Shown: piece after piece, positions 16,339 through 21,735 of the stretch
Position numbering within the stretch: position 1 is the first letter of the stretch
Layout of the letters: each line of letters begins with the position of its first letter
Assembly (NCBI GenBank): GCA_032252755.1
Contig: JAVUPY010000031.1
Location: 1-33,386 of the forward strand
Direction of reading: 5' to 3'
From: Terriglobia bacterium
GTDB taxonomy: Bacteria > Acidobacteriota > Terriglobia > Terriglobales > Acidobacteriaceae
Length of the DNA: 33,386 nucleotides
The notes under the pieces: generated by a model
What the model saw: the letters and a program-made list of their open reading frames with translations, nothing else
Databases searched by the model: none
What the model was told of the DNA's origin: nothing
Made by a program: the position numbers and the translations under genes

Positions 16339-16360
16339 AGGATCCTCACCGTTATGTAAA

Positions 16361-16392
16361 GTTATATGTAAGTATTAACTTACATCTGTAAA
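16361..16392 (-). promoter_or_regulatory. Promoter with palindrome in an over-long spacer, upstream of the BON gene
   Basis: On the minus strand a -35-like TTTACA (16392-16387) and a -10-like TATAAC (16366-16361) are separated by 20 bp. The palindrome ATGTAAGT-atta-ACTTACAT (16366-16385) fills that spacer. This is the layout used by MerR-family regulators, though the elements are assigned by eye. Confidence 0.45.
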
Positions 16393-16484
16393 AACCCGAG
16401 CCTGCGCTATAAGTTTCTTTCTCGCCCGGTAGCCTGCCCCATCGGTGGTACGAAGATCCATCCCTCCACTCTACAATTAGGAGC

Positions 16485-16493
16485 TGATAGAAT
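16485..16493 (+). promoter_or_regulatory. Possible extended -10 promoter for the winged-helix/hydrolase pair
   Basis: TGATAGAAT matches an extended -10 (TGnTATAAT, one mismatch). A second -10-like TACAAT is at 16472-16477. Neither has a good -35. The leader to GTG 16557 would be about 55 nt. Confidence 0.35.
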
Positions 16494-16556
16494 ACGGCAC
16501 CAAGGTGGGGCGAGGCCGGTCCAAGTACGCCCACGGACCTGAGCCGCCGAGGAAAA

Positions 16557-17783
16557 GTGGCGAAGTACGTTTTTGGCCCGTATCACCTCGATGCGAGTGA
16601 GCGAAGACTCATCTCTGGCAATGAGGAAGTCCGCCTCCGAGCCAAGTTGTTTGACACTCTACGTGTGTTGGTAGAGAACGCAGGTCGCCTCGTCCGGAAG
16701 GACGAGCTTATGCAGGCGGTCTGGCCTGATTCTGTCGTCGAGGAAAACAATCTCGATCACTGTGTCTCGCAGCTTCGCAAGTTGTTTCATCCCGCAAAGT
16801 ACATCGAGACTGTTCCACGTCACGGATATAGATTCACTGCAAACGTGACGCCAGTTCATCCCCTGCACCTGGTGGAACTCCAACCTGCTGTCCAAAGATC
16901 CGATGCACCCGACCAGGAAATCCAATTCTTTACCGCCAGCGATGGCGTGCGTATCGCTTTTACCAAGGGCGGCAGTGGACCGACTCTGGTTCGAACCATC
17001 GATTGGTTGAACCATCTGGATTTCGAGTGGAAGAGCCCCTTCTTGAGGCATTGGCTATCCGAAATCATGCGCCATCACACCCTCGTTCGATACGACCAGC
17101 GGGGCAGCGGCCTTTCTGATTGGAATGTCGACGACTTCTCCTTCGAACGCACGATTCAGGACTTCGAGGAACTCGTCGACGCCGCCGGCCTTGGGAAGTT
17201 CGCAATTCTTGGCGGTTGCCAGGGGGCGGCGGTGGCTGCCGCATATGCTGTCCGTCATCCTGAACGAGTCACCAGGCTGATTTTCACCGGCGCGTTCGCC
17301 AATGGATGGCCGGCACCCGGCGACAGCGTTACGGAGCAATTCAACGCACTGCTCACGCTGATTCGGCTCGGGTGGGGGCGCGACAATCCCGCCTTCCGCC
17401 AGCTCTGGACCACGCTCTTTCGGCCGGATGCGGATTCCGTCGAAATGGACTGGTTGAATGAGCTTCAACGAATCTCAACTTCGCCCGAGAATGCGGTGCG
17501 TATGATGTCGGAATTCCCCAAGATCAAGATTCTCGACCTCTTGCCAAAGATCTCCTGTCCAACCCTCGTCCTCCATTCGCGCGACGACGCGGCTATTCCT
17601 GTTCAGGAAGGCCGACTGATTGCCACACGAATTCGTGGGGCACGCTTCGTTGAGTTGCCCAGCCGGTCGCATCTGGTCAGCCCGGGAGATCCCGGATGGC
17701 AAATCTTCGTCCGAGAGCTCTCCGCGTTTCTCGAGTGGACGAGAATCGACAATCAAGAATCCGCGACTGCGTCAGCGGGATAA
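16557..17783 (+). CDS. Winged-helix / alpha-beta hydrolase fusion, Cys-nucleophile variant
   Basis: This is a 408-residue two-domain protein. Residues 1-98 are an OmpR/CadC-type winged helix (YVFGPYHLD, RLRAKLFDTLRVLVENAGRLV, recognition region EENNLDHCVSQLRK, wing VPRHGYRF). Residues ~120-392 are an alpha/beta hydrolase with RYDQRGSGLSDW (178-189), Asp344 and His372 as likely triad members. The elbow is GGCQG, so Cys221 stands where the paralogue downstream has Ser. There is no membrane helix. By architecture it may be a regulator that binds or hydrolyses a small ligand; substrate and targets are unknown. The start is GTG with GAGG 4 nt before it. It is 36 nt from the second copy. Confidence 0.9.
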   Translation: MAKYVFGPYHLDASERRLISGNEEVRLRAKLFDTLRVLVENAGRLVRKDELMQAVWPDSVVEENNLDHCVSQLRKLFHPAKYIETVPRHGYRFTANVTPVHPLHLVELQPAVQRSDAPDQEIQFFTASDGVRIAFTKGGSGPTLVRTIDWLNHLDFEWKSPFLRHWLSEIMRHHTLVRYDQRGSGLSDWNVDDFSFERTIQDFEELVDAAGLGKFAILGGCQGAAVAAAYAVRHPERVTRLIFTGAFANGWPAPGDSVTEQFNALLTLIRLGWGRDNPAFRQLWTTLFRPDADSVEMDWLNELQRISTSPENAVRMMSEFPKIKILDLLPKISCPTLVLHSRDDAAIPVQEGRLIATRIRGARFVELPSRSHLVSPGDPGWQIFVRELSAFLEWTRIDNQESATASAG

Positions 17784-17819
17784 TCGGCCTCATCATGAAC
17801 ATGCCGAGGCGGAGGATGT

Positions 17820-19070
17820 ATGGAGCGTTACACCTTTGCAGAGTTCACCCTCGATGTCGATGAACACCGTTTTCTGAGAAACGGCGTCGAAATCCGGCTG
17901 CGCGGAAAATTGTTCGAGACTTTGAGCATTTTTGTGCAGAACCCCGCCAAACTCCTCCGAAAGGAAGAGCTTCTTGAGATGATCTGGCAGGGCAGGATTG
18001 TCGAAGAAAACAATCTCGATCACTGCGTCTCGCAACTTCGAAAACTCCTCGGGGACAAGGGGAACAAGTTCCTTGAAACCGTTCCTCGCCAGGGCTACCG
18101 ATTTCTTTGCCCCGTTCGAAGGCTCACCGCCGAGGTCGATCTCACTGTCAACAATGTTCTCCCAGGACAAGTCCCTCAAGTCCCGTCACAGGAAATCCAG
18201 TCTTTTCGGACCAAGGATGGGGTAAACATCGCTTACTCCCGGTGCGGCTCGGGCCCGCCTCTCGTCAAAGCAGCCAATTGGCTGAATCACCTCGAGTTTG
18301 AATGGCAAAGCCCGATCTGGGCCCACTGGGTGGCCGAGCTCACGAAACACCACACGTTGTATCGTTACGATGAACGAGGTAACGGCCTATCCGATTGGAA
18401 CATTTCTGATTTTTCGTTTGAGGCCTGGGTACGCGACTTTGAACAACTGATCGATACCCTGGAACTCGACAGGTTCGCTCTTCTTGGGATCTCGCAGGGC
18501 GGTGCTGTCGCGGTATCGTACGCCGCTCGTTTCCCAGAGCGCGTCAGCAAACTCGTCCTCTATGGTGCATATTCCCGCGGTTGGCTGTTCCGTAACTTGC
18601 CTTCCGAAATCGAACGCCGCAATGCACTTCTCACTCTCGTGAGACTAGGATGGGGAAGGGATAATCCGGCCTTCTGGCAATTGTGGACGACACTATTCAT
18701 GCCAGGTGCGACACCCGAACAAGCCAACTGGTTCAACGAACTGCAGCGAAGAACCACCTCGGCGGAGAACGCCGTACAACTCCTCGCCGAAGCAGGAAAG
18801 ATAAACGTTCTGGATCTCCTGCCCAAGATCCAGTGCCCTACTCTGGTACTACATTGCAAAGACGATGCGGCGATCCCAGTCTCGGAAAGTCGTCTCCTGG
18901 CCGCGAGAATTCCCGGCGCAAAATTCATCGAACTCCCTAGCCGCAACCACCTGGTGCTACCGCAGGAACCCGCATGGGGAATCTTCCTCCGGTCTTTGCA
19001 TGAGTTTCTTGGTTGGGAGCACACCGTTCAGACTTTCGACCGATTGCGGCAATCGGCCCCTGCGTCATAG
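17820..19070 (+). CDS. Winged-helix / alpha-beta hydrolase fusion, Ser-nucleophile paralogue
   Basis: This 416-residue paralogue of the gene just upstream is identical at roughly half or more of positions by eye, with EENNLDHCVSQLRKL and GWGRDNPAF unchanged. The N-terminal OmpR-type winged helix (1-100) is followed by a hydrolase domain (~125-397) with RYDERGNGLSDW (182-193), elbow GISQGG (Ser225), Asp349 and His377, a normal catalytic triad. The start ATG has GGAGG 4 nt upstream. The pair is a tandem duplication, probably co-transcribed. The role is unknown; a ligand-hydrolysing transcription factor is one reading, and a hydrolase tethered to DNA another. Confidence 0.9.
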   Translation: MERYTFAEFTLDVDEHRFLRNGVEIRLRGKLFETLSIFVQNPAKLLRKEELLEMIWQGRIVEENNLDHCVSQLRKLLGDKGNKFLETVPRQGYRFLCPVRRLTAEVDLTVNNVLPGQVPQVPSQEIQSFRTKDGVNIAYSRCGSGPPLVKAANWLNHLEFEWQSPIWAHWVAELTKHHTLYRYDERGNGLSDWNISDFSFEAWVRDFEQLIDTLELDRFALLGISQGGAVAVSYAARFPERVSKLVLYGAYSRGWLFRNLPSEIERRNALLTLVRLGWGRDNPAFWQLWTTLFMPGATPEQANWFNELQRRTTSAENAVQLLAEAGKINVLDLLPKIQCPTLVLHCKDDAAIPVSESRLLAARIPGAKFIELPSRNHLVLPQEPAWGIFLRSLHEFLGWEHTVQTFDRLRQSAPAS

Positions 19071-19080
19071 ACAACAAGAA

Positions 19081-19100
19081 GGGCGACACTGAAGCCGCCC
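19081..19100. terminator. Weak hairpin between convergent genes
   Basis: GGGCG and CGCCC form a 5-bp stem with a 10-nt loop, 10 nt after the stop of the second hydrolase fusion and before the convergent MddA-like stop. No T-run follows; it is a weak candidate terminator. Confidence 0.25.
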
Positions 19101-19126
19101 CTCCGCCTCGACCGCCTCTTTGGGAC

Positions 19127-19903
19127 CTATGCCACCGGACGATAACTCCTCGCCGGTTCTTTCTCCATCCGGTACGGCACCAGTGATGGCATAAGCTTCG
19201 GCACCCGCTTCCGGTAGTCCTCGTAATGGGCTCCGTGAATCGTTACGAGATCGCGCTCTTCCCAGCCGATTGCCATCAGGATATACACCGATGTCATGAC
19301 CGCAAAAAGCAGGTGCGCGCCCGTCATGGTGGGCGTCGCCCAGAAGGCGATGAACCACCCAATATACAAAGGGTGCCGCACAAACTTGTAGAAGAGCGGA
19401 GTACGGAATTCGAGGTGCGTATATGGCTTCCCTGCCAGGAACAACGTCACCTGCCGAAGTCCGAACAGGTCGAAGTGGTTGATTAAGAACGTCGTAACCA
19501 GAACCAAAGCGAAGCCAAAACCAAATACCATGTTAATCGCGTTCCGGATTGCAGGATCAGCGACGTCCCAGATCACGCCGCCGATCGGCTCCCAGAACGC
19601 GAACATAGCTATGAGCGCGAGACTCGAGCAGAGAACATATGTGCTGCGCTCAGCCGGCTCCGGGATGAATTTTGTCAGAAACCGCTTGAATGCCGGCCGC
19701 GCCATCGCGCTGTGCTGGACGGCAAATAGGCCCAGCAGCAGCGTGTCAATCAGCAATGCCTGCCAGAACGGAACCCGCGCTGCGGAGTCCAGTGATCTCG
19801 GGACAACCATATTCCCGATAAACCCAACGGCATAAAGAAATGTGAGAAAAAACACGGCGTAACTCACCACGCCGTACACGAAGACTGTCACTCGCTTCAT
19901 CAT
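19127..19903 (-). CDS. mddA: Methanethiol S-methyltransferase-like membrane protein (MddA / NnrU-ICMT family)
   Basis: This 258-residue integral membrane protein has about five hydrophobic helices (around 8-31, 47-64, 88-112, 122-142 and 180-212). The C-terminal ICMT-type SAM site is clear: RHPLYIGW (176-183) and EERDL...HYEDYRKRVP (215-234). The N terminus (VYGVVSYAVFFLTFLYAVGFIGN...VPRSLDS) matches MddA-type sequences as I know them. MddA methylates methanethiol to dimethyl sulfide. The frame is open to 20101, but the upstream 66 codons have no membrane character; ATG 19903 (or the adjacent ATG 19900) is preferred. The exact substrate is inferred; a related isoprenylcysteine-type methyltransferase is the main alternative. 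Confidence 0.75.
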   Translation of the reverse strand: MMKRVTVFVYGVVSYAVFFLTFLYAVGFIGNMVVPRSLDSAARVPFWQALLIDTLLLGLFAVQHSAMARPAFKRFLTKFIPEPAERSTYVLCSSLALIAMFAFWEPIGGVIWDVADPAIRNAINMVFGFGFALVLVTTFLINHFDLFGLRQVTLFLAGKPYTHLEFRTPLFYKFVRHPLYIGWFIAFWATPTMTGAHLLFAVMTSVYILMAIGWEERDLVTIHGAHYEDYRKRVPKLMPSLVPYRMEKEPARSYRPVA

Positions 19904-20097
19904 GAACTTTCCATCCTCTCTCTTCGGGCCCCGGCTGCATCCGGTATCCCCACGTGATGCAACGAGCTTATCTACGCATTGAATGGAAGTCCTTGAATCA
20001 ACCTGAAATCTGGCTGAGAGTTTTCTGAAAGTCGTTTCCTGCGGAGAAGTGCTCGTCTTGAAAACTGGTTCGGCGGGAGGCCGCCAGGTCTCGCACC

Positions 20098-21030
20098 TCA
20101 TTTTGAGCGCCGCAATACCATGATGCTCGTGTCGTCCAGTCGATTCTCCCGCGTCAAATCAGTAGAGGCATCGAGCAGGGTTGATATCGTCAACAGCGGT
20201 GCGGCATCAGCAGCTTTCGCTGCCAGCGCTGCGACCCATCCGATCGAGAAATCTTCACGATGGTCCCTTCTTTCTATCAGCCCGTCAGAAAAGGCAACGA
20301 TCGATTCGCCTCTTCTCAAATCGACGTCTTGGCACTCATATCGTGGACTGGAAAACACCCCCAGCAATGGGCCACCCGCAGTCGCAATCTCAAAGTTAAC
20401 GTCGCCCCGAATGATCACAGCAGGCGGGTGCCCGGCCAGCGCGCACGAAACCACGCTGCTGCCTTCCTCGAAGCACAGAGCTACTGCGCTCATTAGAGGC
20501 GCTCGGACCCGCGACTCCAAAATCTCCGAATTAAGCCGGCTCAACAGATCGCACACGTTTTGCGATCCTTCTGCCGCACGATGCACAAGGTCGATGACGT
20601 GTGTAAGCCACATCGCCGCCGAGAGTCCCTTGCCCATTAAGTCGCCCAAAACGATAAAGGTCTTTCCACGATGCTGCAGACTGTGAACGAAATCCCCGCT
20701 CACGTGACGCGCCGGTATGATTGTTGAGGCGAATTCAAAGGCACCCAGGTGCTGCAATTCGGGCGCGCAGAGCGCGCGGTGAACTTCCGTCGCCCCTTTC
20801 ATAGCCACCGTTGTCTCGCTCGCGATGTGGCTGCACTTCCCATTTCGGCAAATTTGACTATTGCGGACATGATGCCTCGGGTACTTTGCACGGGTCTCTC
20901 GTCTCACGCTCTCGTCCCTCCTCGATCCGTCGAGCATGAGGTCATTAGGCCCGATTGCGCGAGCTTTCGTCCTTTTATCTGGCTGATATTGATCTGAATT
21001 TGTTCTGAAAACGTCTTCGAAGAACTCCAT
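20098..21030 (-). CDS. SpoIIE/RsbU-type PP2C phosphatase
   Basis: This protein has about 310 residues. The C-terminal two thirds (from about residue 80) are a PPM/SpoIIE phosphatase domain: VHRALCAPELQ helix, PARHVSGDF (Asp113), LGDLMGKGLSAAM (Asp130), AFSDGLIER and LDDTSIMVLR, giving the acidic metal ligands. Such proteins dephosphorylate anti-sigma-factor antagonists or related switch proteins. The first ~80 residues are basic with CRNGKC and match nothing I know. The frame also opens at TTG 21054; ATG 21030 is chosen, and a later ATG at 20802 just before the domain is possible. It lies 36 nt after pcm on the same strand. No RsbV/W partners are adjacent. Confidence 0.82.
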   Translation of the reverse strand: MEFFEDVFRTNSDQYQPDKRTKARAIGPNDLMLDGSRRDESVRRETRAKYPRHHVRNSQICRNGKCSHIASETTVAMKGATEVHRALCAPELQHLGAFEFASTIIPARHVSGDFVHSLQHRGKTFIVLGDLMGKGLSAAMWLTHVIDLVHRAAEGSQNVCDLLSRLNSEILESRVRAPLMSAVALCFEEGSSVVSCALAGHPPAVIIRGDVNFEIATAGGPLLGVFSSPRYECQDVDLRRGESIVAFSDGLIERRDHREDFSIGWVAALAAKAADAAPLLTISTLLDASTDLTRENRLDDTSIMVLRRSK

Positions 21031-21066
21031 TGCGGAGCGTAGAAAGTGCTTCAATGGAACTGTCGC

Positions 21067-21735
21067 TCAGTGCGGATTCGTGAATCCGCACTCCCCGATC
21101 AGCGGCACGAACCGGCAACCTTCAAGATTGCTGGCGTAAATCTCCCCCTGGCTCTTCCTTACGAGTTGCAGTACCTGCATCTCCGACGTCCCCACCGGAA
21201 TTATCATCCGTCCGTCGTCCTGCATCTGGTCGATCAATGGCTGCGGAACGCTCGGGGCAGCCGCCGCCACCAGTATCCGGTCGTACGGCGCGTGCTCTGG
21301 GAATCCAAGCGTCCCGTCGCCAACCACAACTTCGATATTCTCGTACGCCAGTCGCACAAAGATCTCCCGCGCCCTCTCCGCCAGCGAAGCGTGCCGCTCG
21401 ACCGTGTAAACCTGTCGCCCCAGGCGCGACAGCACCGCCGCCTGGTATCCCGTCCCCGTTCCGACCTCGAGCACCACATTCTCCGGTTCGACCGCCAGCA
21501 ACTGCGTCATCAGCGCGACAATGTACGGCTGCGATATCGTCTGCTCTTCCCCTATCGGTACCGGCTGGTCTTCGTACGCGCGAAACCGTCCGGCCTCCGG
21601 TATGAACTCATGCCGCGGAACCTCTTCCGTTGCTCGCAGCACTCGTTCGTCGTGAATGCCGCGCCGGCGAAGCTGGTGCTCCACCATCGCTTGCCGCCGC
21701 GACACATATGGATCGGGTTCGAAGAGATGTTGCAC
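21067..21735 (-). CDS. pcm: Protein-L-isoaspartate O-methyltransferase
   Basis: This 222-residue enzyme uses SAM to methylate L-isoaspartyl residues in damaged proteins, starting their repair. Conserved features: MVEHQLRRRGIHDERVL (17-33), the PCMT loop IGEEQTISQPY (61-71), motif I VLEVGTGTGYQAAVLS (88-103) and the DGR(M/L)IIPVG segment. The start is GTG 21735, giving normal family length; ATG 21687 would remove 16 residues. It lies 51 nt after tamB and may share its transcript. The last codons and stop fall in a perfect inverted repeat. Confidence 0.95.
   Translation of the reverse strand: MQHLFEPDPYVSRRQAMVEHQLRRRGIHDERVLRATEEVPRHEFIPEAGRFRAYEDQPVPIGEEQTISQPYIVALMTQLLAVEPENVVLEVGTGTGYQAAVLSRLGRQVYTVERHASLAERAREIFVRLAYENIEVVVGDGTLGFPEHAPYDRILVAAAAPSVPQPLIDQMQDDGRMIIPVGTSEMQVLQLVRKSQGEIYASNLEGCRFVPLIGECGFTNPH
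21069..21092. repeat. Perfect 11-bp inverted repeat over the pcm stop codon
   Basis: AGTGCGGATTC and GAATCCGCACT are exact reverse complements separated by 2 nt. The repeat contains the last seven codons of pcm and one base of its TGA. No T-run follows on either strand, so it is not a classic terminator. Confidence 0.75.

Follow-up and report, generated by a model that had tools for sequence, protein, structure and literature searches.

Tandem winged-helix/hydrolase fusion proteins with Cys and Ser nucleophile positions, candidate one-component regulators of a neighbouring mddA gene in a Terriglobia bacterium

Regulators of the PhoB/OmpR family and of the CadC/ToxR type combine a Trans_reg_C winged-helix DNA-binding domain with a receiver or a membrane sensor as input. 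Here we describe two adjacent genes in a 33,386-nucleotide stretch of DNA from a Terriglobia bacterium (assembly GCA_032252755.1, contig JAVUPY010000031.1, positions 1 to 33,386 of the forward strand; ‘the window’ refers to this whole stretch), whose products share the Trans_reg_C domain with those regulators but differ in the input, which is an alpha/beta hydrolase domain, with no receiver matched. One protein has Cys and the other Ser at the place of the hydrolase nucleophile, and both are candidate regulators of the neighbouring mddA, the gene for methanethiol S-methyltransferase. A related hydrolase is joined to a signalling output in the LipJ-type hydrolase/adenylate cyclase fusions (NF058673), of which the window proteins are not members, as they score 70.0 and 66.7 bits, far under the cut-off of 800, and have a DNA-binding rather than a cyclase output. 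The hydrolase domain has some of its best-scoring sequence relatives in Est1-type esterases and the 3-oxoadipate enol-lactonase PcaD, which are stand-alone enzymes, and the window proteins reach 73.8 and 93.1 bits against the PcaD cut-off of 255.85. Alpha/beta-hydrolase folds with a triad also serve signal perception in the receptors D14/KAI2 and RsbQ, which act through partner proteins; the window proteins differ in joining the putative sensor and the DNA-binding domain in one chain, and in having a Cys version, and RsbQ itself was only a weak match.

MddA adds methyl groups to sulfide and methanethiol on the way to dimethyl sulfide (PMC13352529), and a 2026 review places it chiefly in bacteria of soil and freshwater (PMC13360808). 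A paper on the control of methanethiol production in Vibrio reports that vibrios have no MddA, and so has no bearing on the control of mddA (PMC10819757). In Ruegeria pomeroyi, transcription of mtoX is raised by methanethiol and an IclR-type regulator stands beside mtoX, and the likeness to the window lies in a regulator adjoining a methanethiol gene; that regulator belongs to another family than those of the window, and the available part of the paper mentions no hydrolase domain (PMC5739008). Among the open-access papers that our searches brought up we saw no regulator of mddA, and nothing on point concerning hydrolase-fold sensors joined to DNA-binding domains.

The two genes lie on the forward strand with a gap of 36 bases. 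Regulator 1 (16557-17783, GTG start) has 408 amino acids, with a winged helix at residues ~4-93 and an alpha/beta hydrolase at residues ~120-392; regulator 2 (17820-19070, ATG start) has 416 amino acids and the same two domains. Trans_reg_C (PF00486, cut-off 26.2) matches the two at 60.8 and 56.4 bits, and Abhydrolase_1 (PF00561, cut-off 25.8) at 68.6 and 72.2 bits. Among the Pfam matches of either protein at E 0.001 there were only Trans_reg_C and hydrolase families and no receiver domain, so the label ‘OmpR-type’ suits the DNA-binding domain and not the whole protein; each has Trans_reg_C and an input domain in one chain without a receiver, the arrangement of a winged-helix one-component regulator. 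The segment VEENNLDHCVSQLRKL, which from knowledge of the fold we take to be the recognition helix, is identical in regulator 1 (16737-16784) and regulator 2 (18000-18047). The nucleophile positions are Cys221 in regulator 1 (codon TGC, 17217-17219, elbow GGCQG) and Ser225 in regulator 2 (codon TCG, 18492-18494, elbow GISQG), and in coordinates, domains and elbows the locus is as a preliminary description of this DNA had it. A scan of the genome contigs gave only two relatives, both matching in the hydrolase domain.

Both hydrolase domains retain a full triad. Cys221 takes the place of the nucleophile Ser when aligned with solved esterases, and in an alignment of 44 relatives (which omits L003, a winged helix only) 37 have Ser as the nucleophile, seven have Cys and none has another residue. 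The acid column is Asp or Glu in all 44, for which reason we assign the acid to D344 in regulator 1 and D349 in regulator 2, the second Asp of the DDAAIP stretch, and the base, H372 or H377, is likewise His in 44 of 44; the nucleophile, acid and His are thus present at the aligned positions of both window proteins. Since acid and His are kept and the nucleophile is always Ser or Cys, neither copy resembles a dead enzyme, and we rejected a catalytically dead hydrolase or pseudo-receptor, no triad residue being lost. The preliminary description had noted that the Asp and His positions are kept, which holds across the relatives, and had proposed one catalytic and one sensor-like copy, a division for which we find no support, as both triads are intact. 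It had also drawn a parallel to dienelactone hydrolase; neither protein matches PF01738 at E 0.001, and membership of that family is rejected.

The Cys copy is a conserved lineage and not a peculiarity of this strain, the outcome that the preliminary description had named as fatal to its idea. Matches at E 1e-80 were found in 16 of 398 genomes of the same family, and the family is wider than this count, which is confined to relatives at that threshold; genomes throughout are drawn samples that overlap between searches, and the loci (genomes, contigs and loci carry the handles G, C and L) are not independent. Within the fusion clade the Cys copy occurs in six genomes of six genera (the source genome G000, G015, G072, G092, G130 and G143), and in the midpoint-rooted hydrolase tree these six form one clade (support 100/100) on a long stem (0.35), adjoining a Ser clade (73.8/96) made up of the second copies of G000, G015 and G143; the two clades together have a support of 85.2/96. 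The Cys and Ser paralogues thus probably derive from a duplication that predates the split of these genera. Both are present in three genomes, in tandem in G000 and, in the reversed order of Ser first and then Cys, in G015, and on separate contigs in G143, so that the duplicated pair of one-component regulators envisaged earlier does recur; a Cys regulator without a Ser sister was found in G072, G092 and G130, the last a 69% complete draft. The Cys hydrolase domain is under constraint: between G072 and G130, a pair with unsaturated dS (0.50), the ratio of nonsynonymous to synonymous substitution (dN/dS) is 0.093. The clade has eleven further clade-specific hydrolase positions, including R146, I148, Q181, F320 and P321. 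The supported clade of six genera and this dN/dS rule out chance, sequencing error or a strain oddity as the source of the Cys.

G072 and G092, of two genera, share a block of at least 10.8 kilobases (kb) at 99.2% identity (L058 8219-19001, L059 538-11321) that holds mddA, the Cys regulator and downstream genes, and its edge is the site upstream of mddA described below. The block is a recent transfer that took the operator, mddA, the Cys regulator and the genes downstream together, and the two genomes therefore stand for one transfer rather than two witnesses for Cys conservation. A seventh Cys occurs in the LuxR-type fusion of G393 (GCCQG, L062 4079-5158), elsewhere in a poorly resolved part of the tree, and looks to have arisen independently; the MddA and SBP56 searches gave no match in that genome.

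A link of the regulators to methanethiol is suggested by their neighbours. The main clade of full-length fusions comprises 24 genes at 22 loci, and at 18 of these mddA (11 loci) or a gene for an SBP56 protein (seven) lies within 4 kb, at 15 of them within 0.7 kb. Ten of the mddA-linked loci have the gene within 0.4 kb, the remaining one (G100:C147) at 1.8 kb; for SBP56, five lie within 0.7 kb, with G809 at 2.4 kb and G114 at 3.6 kb, and all three of the wider gaps contain another winged-helix regulator, whose effector is TPR or AAA. All six Cys loci are mddA loci, including that of G130, where the mddA is a fragment below cut-off; this gene (L060 2853-3720) is apparently frame-shifted or broken. 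Loci with the Ser type alone or the Cys type alone beside mddA or SBP56 are common. mddA itself is uncommon: of 180 genomes of the family, 21 have it (G846 and G867 lay outside the MddA profile search), with 30 genes in all, and nine of these genes adjoin a fusion. The SBP56 neighbours are likely methanethiol oxidases, judging from the three proteins scanned, which match PF05694 at 632.6, 627.9 and 609.9 bits, and which score 101.4, 105.4 and 102 bits on the curated MtoX model NF052453, below its cut-off of 650. In another phylum, a Ser-elbow fusion of Gemmatirosa is near an SBP56 gene (69% identity).

In the window, mddA (19127-19903, reverse strand; NF045656, 329.2 bits, cut-off 270) follows the regulator pair, its start being set at MMKR, where the family profile begins, in a reading frame open to 20101. 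On the same strand is a SpoIIE-type phosphatase gene (PF07228, 112.4 bits; maximal open reading frame 20098-21054). A SpoIIE-type gene stands beside mddA in both Cys/Ser-tandem genomes, the window and L061 (11923-12870), with 40% identity.

Upstream of the window mddA is an operator-like site (19989-20028, reverse strand) with an exact match to TCAG-N7-TCAG-N7-TCAG-N8-AAGGAC, and a second exact site (20969-21008, reverse strand) precedes the likely start of the SpoIIE-type gene, whose in-frame GTG at 20907 and ATG at 20937 both come after it. We sought this pattern with at most two mismatches in 50 genomes, 15 with a fusion and 35 without one at threshold, and found 33 sites (seven exact, eight with one mismatch and 18 with two). 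All 15 sites with zero or one mismatch are in fusion-bearing genomes (11 of the 15) and none in the 35 fusion-free genomes; the two-mismatch sites are divided between fusion-bearing (five, three of them at the fusion loci G515, G239:C65 and G100:C40) and fusion-free genomes (13, which look like noise). The reversed pattern gave four matches. Six of the exact sites are upstream of mddA, and the seventh is that before the SpoIIE-type gene of the window, the gene preceding mddA. By locus, a site with at most one mismatch is found at nine of 11 mddA-linked loci, and one with at most two at three of seven SBP56-linked loci. Where mddA has no fusion next to it (24 loci, among them the second mddA genes of G000, G015, G072 and G092), no site occurs even at up to three mismatches. 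This control set omits C50 and C76 of G239, which are beside other winged-helix proteins, as well as sub-cut-off MddA matches, and at one locus in the set (L116) a different kind of winged-helix gene is close by. The site is not merely autoregulatory, since convergent loci carry it upstream of mddA and not of the regulator.

PhoB boxes are direct repeats at 11 base pairs upstream of a poor -35, and the window site is arranged alike. Read by eye, AAGGAC could be a weak -35, the repeats standing where a PhoB-type activator would have them, and TAAT-like sequences occur ~15-19 bases downstream of it; the form of the site also seems to vary with the recognition helix. The rule that an NNLD helix goes with mddA and NNLN with SBP56 fits the linked hydrolase fusions and was dropped, being broken by an NNLN TPR-type regulator beside mddA (G239:C50). 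Some sites are elsewhere: a third one in G000 (C11, L175 3490-4129, one mismatch) is upstream of the gene for a small, secreted-looking protein of 176 amino acids with no Pfam family, a homologue of which (52%) adjoins the second mddA of G015, and one-mismatch sites with no known tie are found before a pyridoxal-dependent decarboxylase gene (G015:C39) and as a second site in G809.

The DNA-binding and hydrolase domains appear to be exchanged between these proteins. The Cys/Ser pair of G015 has winged helices 85% identical and hydrolases 57% identical, and for the Cys-type and Ser-type proteins of G092 the figures are 97% and 44%; the fusions of G809 and G114 each have a tandem partner, another regulator, with a winged helix 98% and 84% identical and a TPR or AAA effector. 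A shared winged helix (84-98%) with a differing sensor in four of six measured pairs therefore suggests that one DNA-binding module carries different inputs. The reverse is seen between the mddA-linked fusion of G128 and the SBP56-linked one of G239:C112, with hydrolase DNA 92% and winged-helix DNA 67% identical, and the linker is where identity breaks off in the DNA of the compared pairs. Winged-helix regulators with AAA or TPR effectors were seen beside a fusion or beside mddA or SBP56 at L065 (10231-13209), L069 (7462-9123), L139 (7818-9566) and L144 (4415-6079), with near-identical DNA-binding domains in two measured cases.

The same hydrolase domain is in turn joined to Trans_reg_C, to GerE (the LuxR-type helix-turn-helix, nine proteins), to Guanylate_cyc and to Pkinase; examples of the last two are a nucleotide cyclase fusion in G402 (L029 492-2045) and a Ser/Thr protein kinase fusion in G675 (L125 6438-8273). 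Three of the nine LuxR-type fusion genes adjoin mddA, two of the nine genomes being outside that search. GGGAC..GTCCC-like palindromes were seen in or near the intergenic region at these three (L128 5811, L129 7425, L130 near 6600), and are a possible operator of the LuxR-type branch, such short sites also occurring elsewhere.

Taken together, we consider it likely that both window proteins are one-component regulators of the neighbouring mddA with the hydrolase domain as input, and the pair probably also controls the SpoIIE-type gene that precedes it. The regulatory role first suggested for them has become concrete through the link to methanethiol genes, the operator-like site and the swapping of sensors between DNA-binding domains. 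The PhoB-like winged helix would bind the three TCAG direct repeats, spaced at 11 base pairs, whose position just upstream of the weak -35-like AAGGAC suggests activation of mddA. The alpha/beta hydrolase would be the input module, binding a compound tied to methanethiol or sulfide metabolism that it may turn over or be acylated by, and with a common recognition-helix segment and different sensor chemistry the Cys and Ser copies could bring two chemical inputs to one promoter. Domains, intact triads, the conserved Cys clade, gene linkage, the operator-like site and module swapping are what is read in the DNA; from them we infer DNA binding, the direction of control, the ligand and the part of the nucleophile in sensing, with the proposed tie to methanethiol drawn entirely from neighbours and sites.

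Several observations weigh against this reading. Four of the 22 loci have neither mddA nor SBP56 (G143:C160, G100:C40, G073:C15 and G026:C83), two of which (G100:C40 and G026:C83) are near a contig end or on a 3.7-kb contig, and four distant full-length fusions with GVSEG elbows (G730, G823:C15, G837:C27 and G891), at the edge of the threshold and kept out of the 22, also have neither gene, which would bring the linkage to 18 of 26. Seven of 97 matched plasmid records were inspected, and the other six plasmid regions, apart from that of Gemmatirosa, gave no SBP56 and no clear mddA; one, from Rhizobium, has a single weak match (26% identity). The site pattern was first read from the same fusion loci, which in part guarantees that it is found at them, and at up to two mismatches it is absent from two of 11 mddA-linked loci (G015 and G100:C147) and four of seven SBP56-linked ones; in G015, the only other Cys/Ser tandem found, it is degenerate. 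A generic sigma-70 scan of 16340-21100 gave no promoter-like site. The winged helices of the window pair are 52% identical as a whole, for all that the recognition-helix segment is the same, and those of the G143 pair are 59% identical with differing recognition-helix segments. The AlphaFold model of the Cys protein is good in the winged helix and poor in the hydrolase, where the mean predicted local distance difference test score is 59.5. The simplest picture loses a little of its force through the G143 pair and the wider gaps.

A bolder version of the proposal, which we offer tentatively and think has the odds against it, is a two-channel sensor of volatile sulfur, with the Cys221 thiolate forming a covalent adduct with a methanethiol product and the Ser paralogue reading an ester or thioester of the same metabolism, both acting at one operator through the same recognition helix. 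Cys221, activated by the triad, could for instance react with dimethyl disulfide to give a mixed S-methyl disulfide, or with an S-methyl thioester to give an acyl-Cys. If true, the hydrolase would be a general, swappable sensory domain of bacteria, with winged-helix, LuxR, cyclase and kinase outputs.

Other explanations share part of this evidence. The hydrolases could be true enzymes of methanethiol or thioester metabolism, with the winged helix letting the enzyme regulate its own pathway, as PutA-type metabolic enzymes do. The triads intact in all 44 relatives, the constraint on the hydrolase domain and the linkage to enzymes of one pathway would all be expected; however, four kinds of signalling output are joined to this domain, and a fusion or mddA also has winged-helix neighbours that are not hydrolases and carry TPR or AAA effectors. 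An input role fits this better than a fixed pathway step, and we regard this account as unlikely. We also think it improbable that Cys is a tolerated substitution and the two copies are functionally equal, although the window pair has the same acid, base and recognition-helix segment, and the three genomes with a Cys regulator and no Ser sister (one of them the incomplete G130 draft) suggest that one may suffice: the Cys is kept in six genera together with the eleven clade-specific positions and the long stem.

Doubtful to a greater degree is the version first put forward, with a working enzyme in one copy and, in the Cys copy, a sensor that is slow or becomes trapped covalently. A Cys nucleophile can yield longer-lived acyl or disulfide adducts, and both paralogues are retained in three genomes, but the frequency of Ser-only and Cys-only loci beside mddA or SBP56 means that each seems able to regulate alone. 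Finally, the genes could form a travelling cassette with no regulatory tie, the TCAG site being used by another protein. The near-identical block in G072 and G092 does show that mddA and the Cys gene are mobile; the site, however, tracks the fusion and not mddA as such, as the 24 control loci indicate, its form seems by eye to follow the recognition helix, and the linkage recurs with LuxR-type DNA-binding domains and with SBP56, which makes this account very unlikely.

Relatives were also seen on plasmids, outside the group studied here. In Shinella the neighbours of a plasmid relative are msuE and genes for flavin-dependent oxidoreductases, possibly organosulfur genes, and a Ruegeria conchae plasmid has two hydrolase/winged-helix genes on one strand, 1.4 kb apart (L187 3986-5170 and 6576-7751). 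Where the plasmid records annotate such genes, it is as alpha/beta hydrolases (five records), and a neighbouring relative in Ruegeria is given as a winged-helix protein.

In summary, the locus offers a candidate regulator of mddA, with a putative operator and a small putative regulon, in which a familiar DNA-binding domain is combined with an unusual and possibly covalent input domain in a one-component regulator. It suggests that bacteria use hydrolase folds as exchangeable chemical sensors, and it provides a natural Ser/Cys pair for asking whether covalent nucleophile chemistry carries the signal. These proteins may thus be sulfur-related sensors of a kind so far undescribed.

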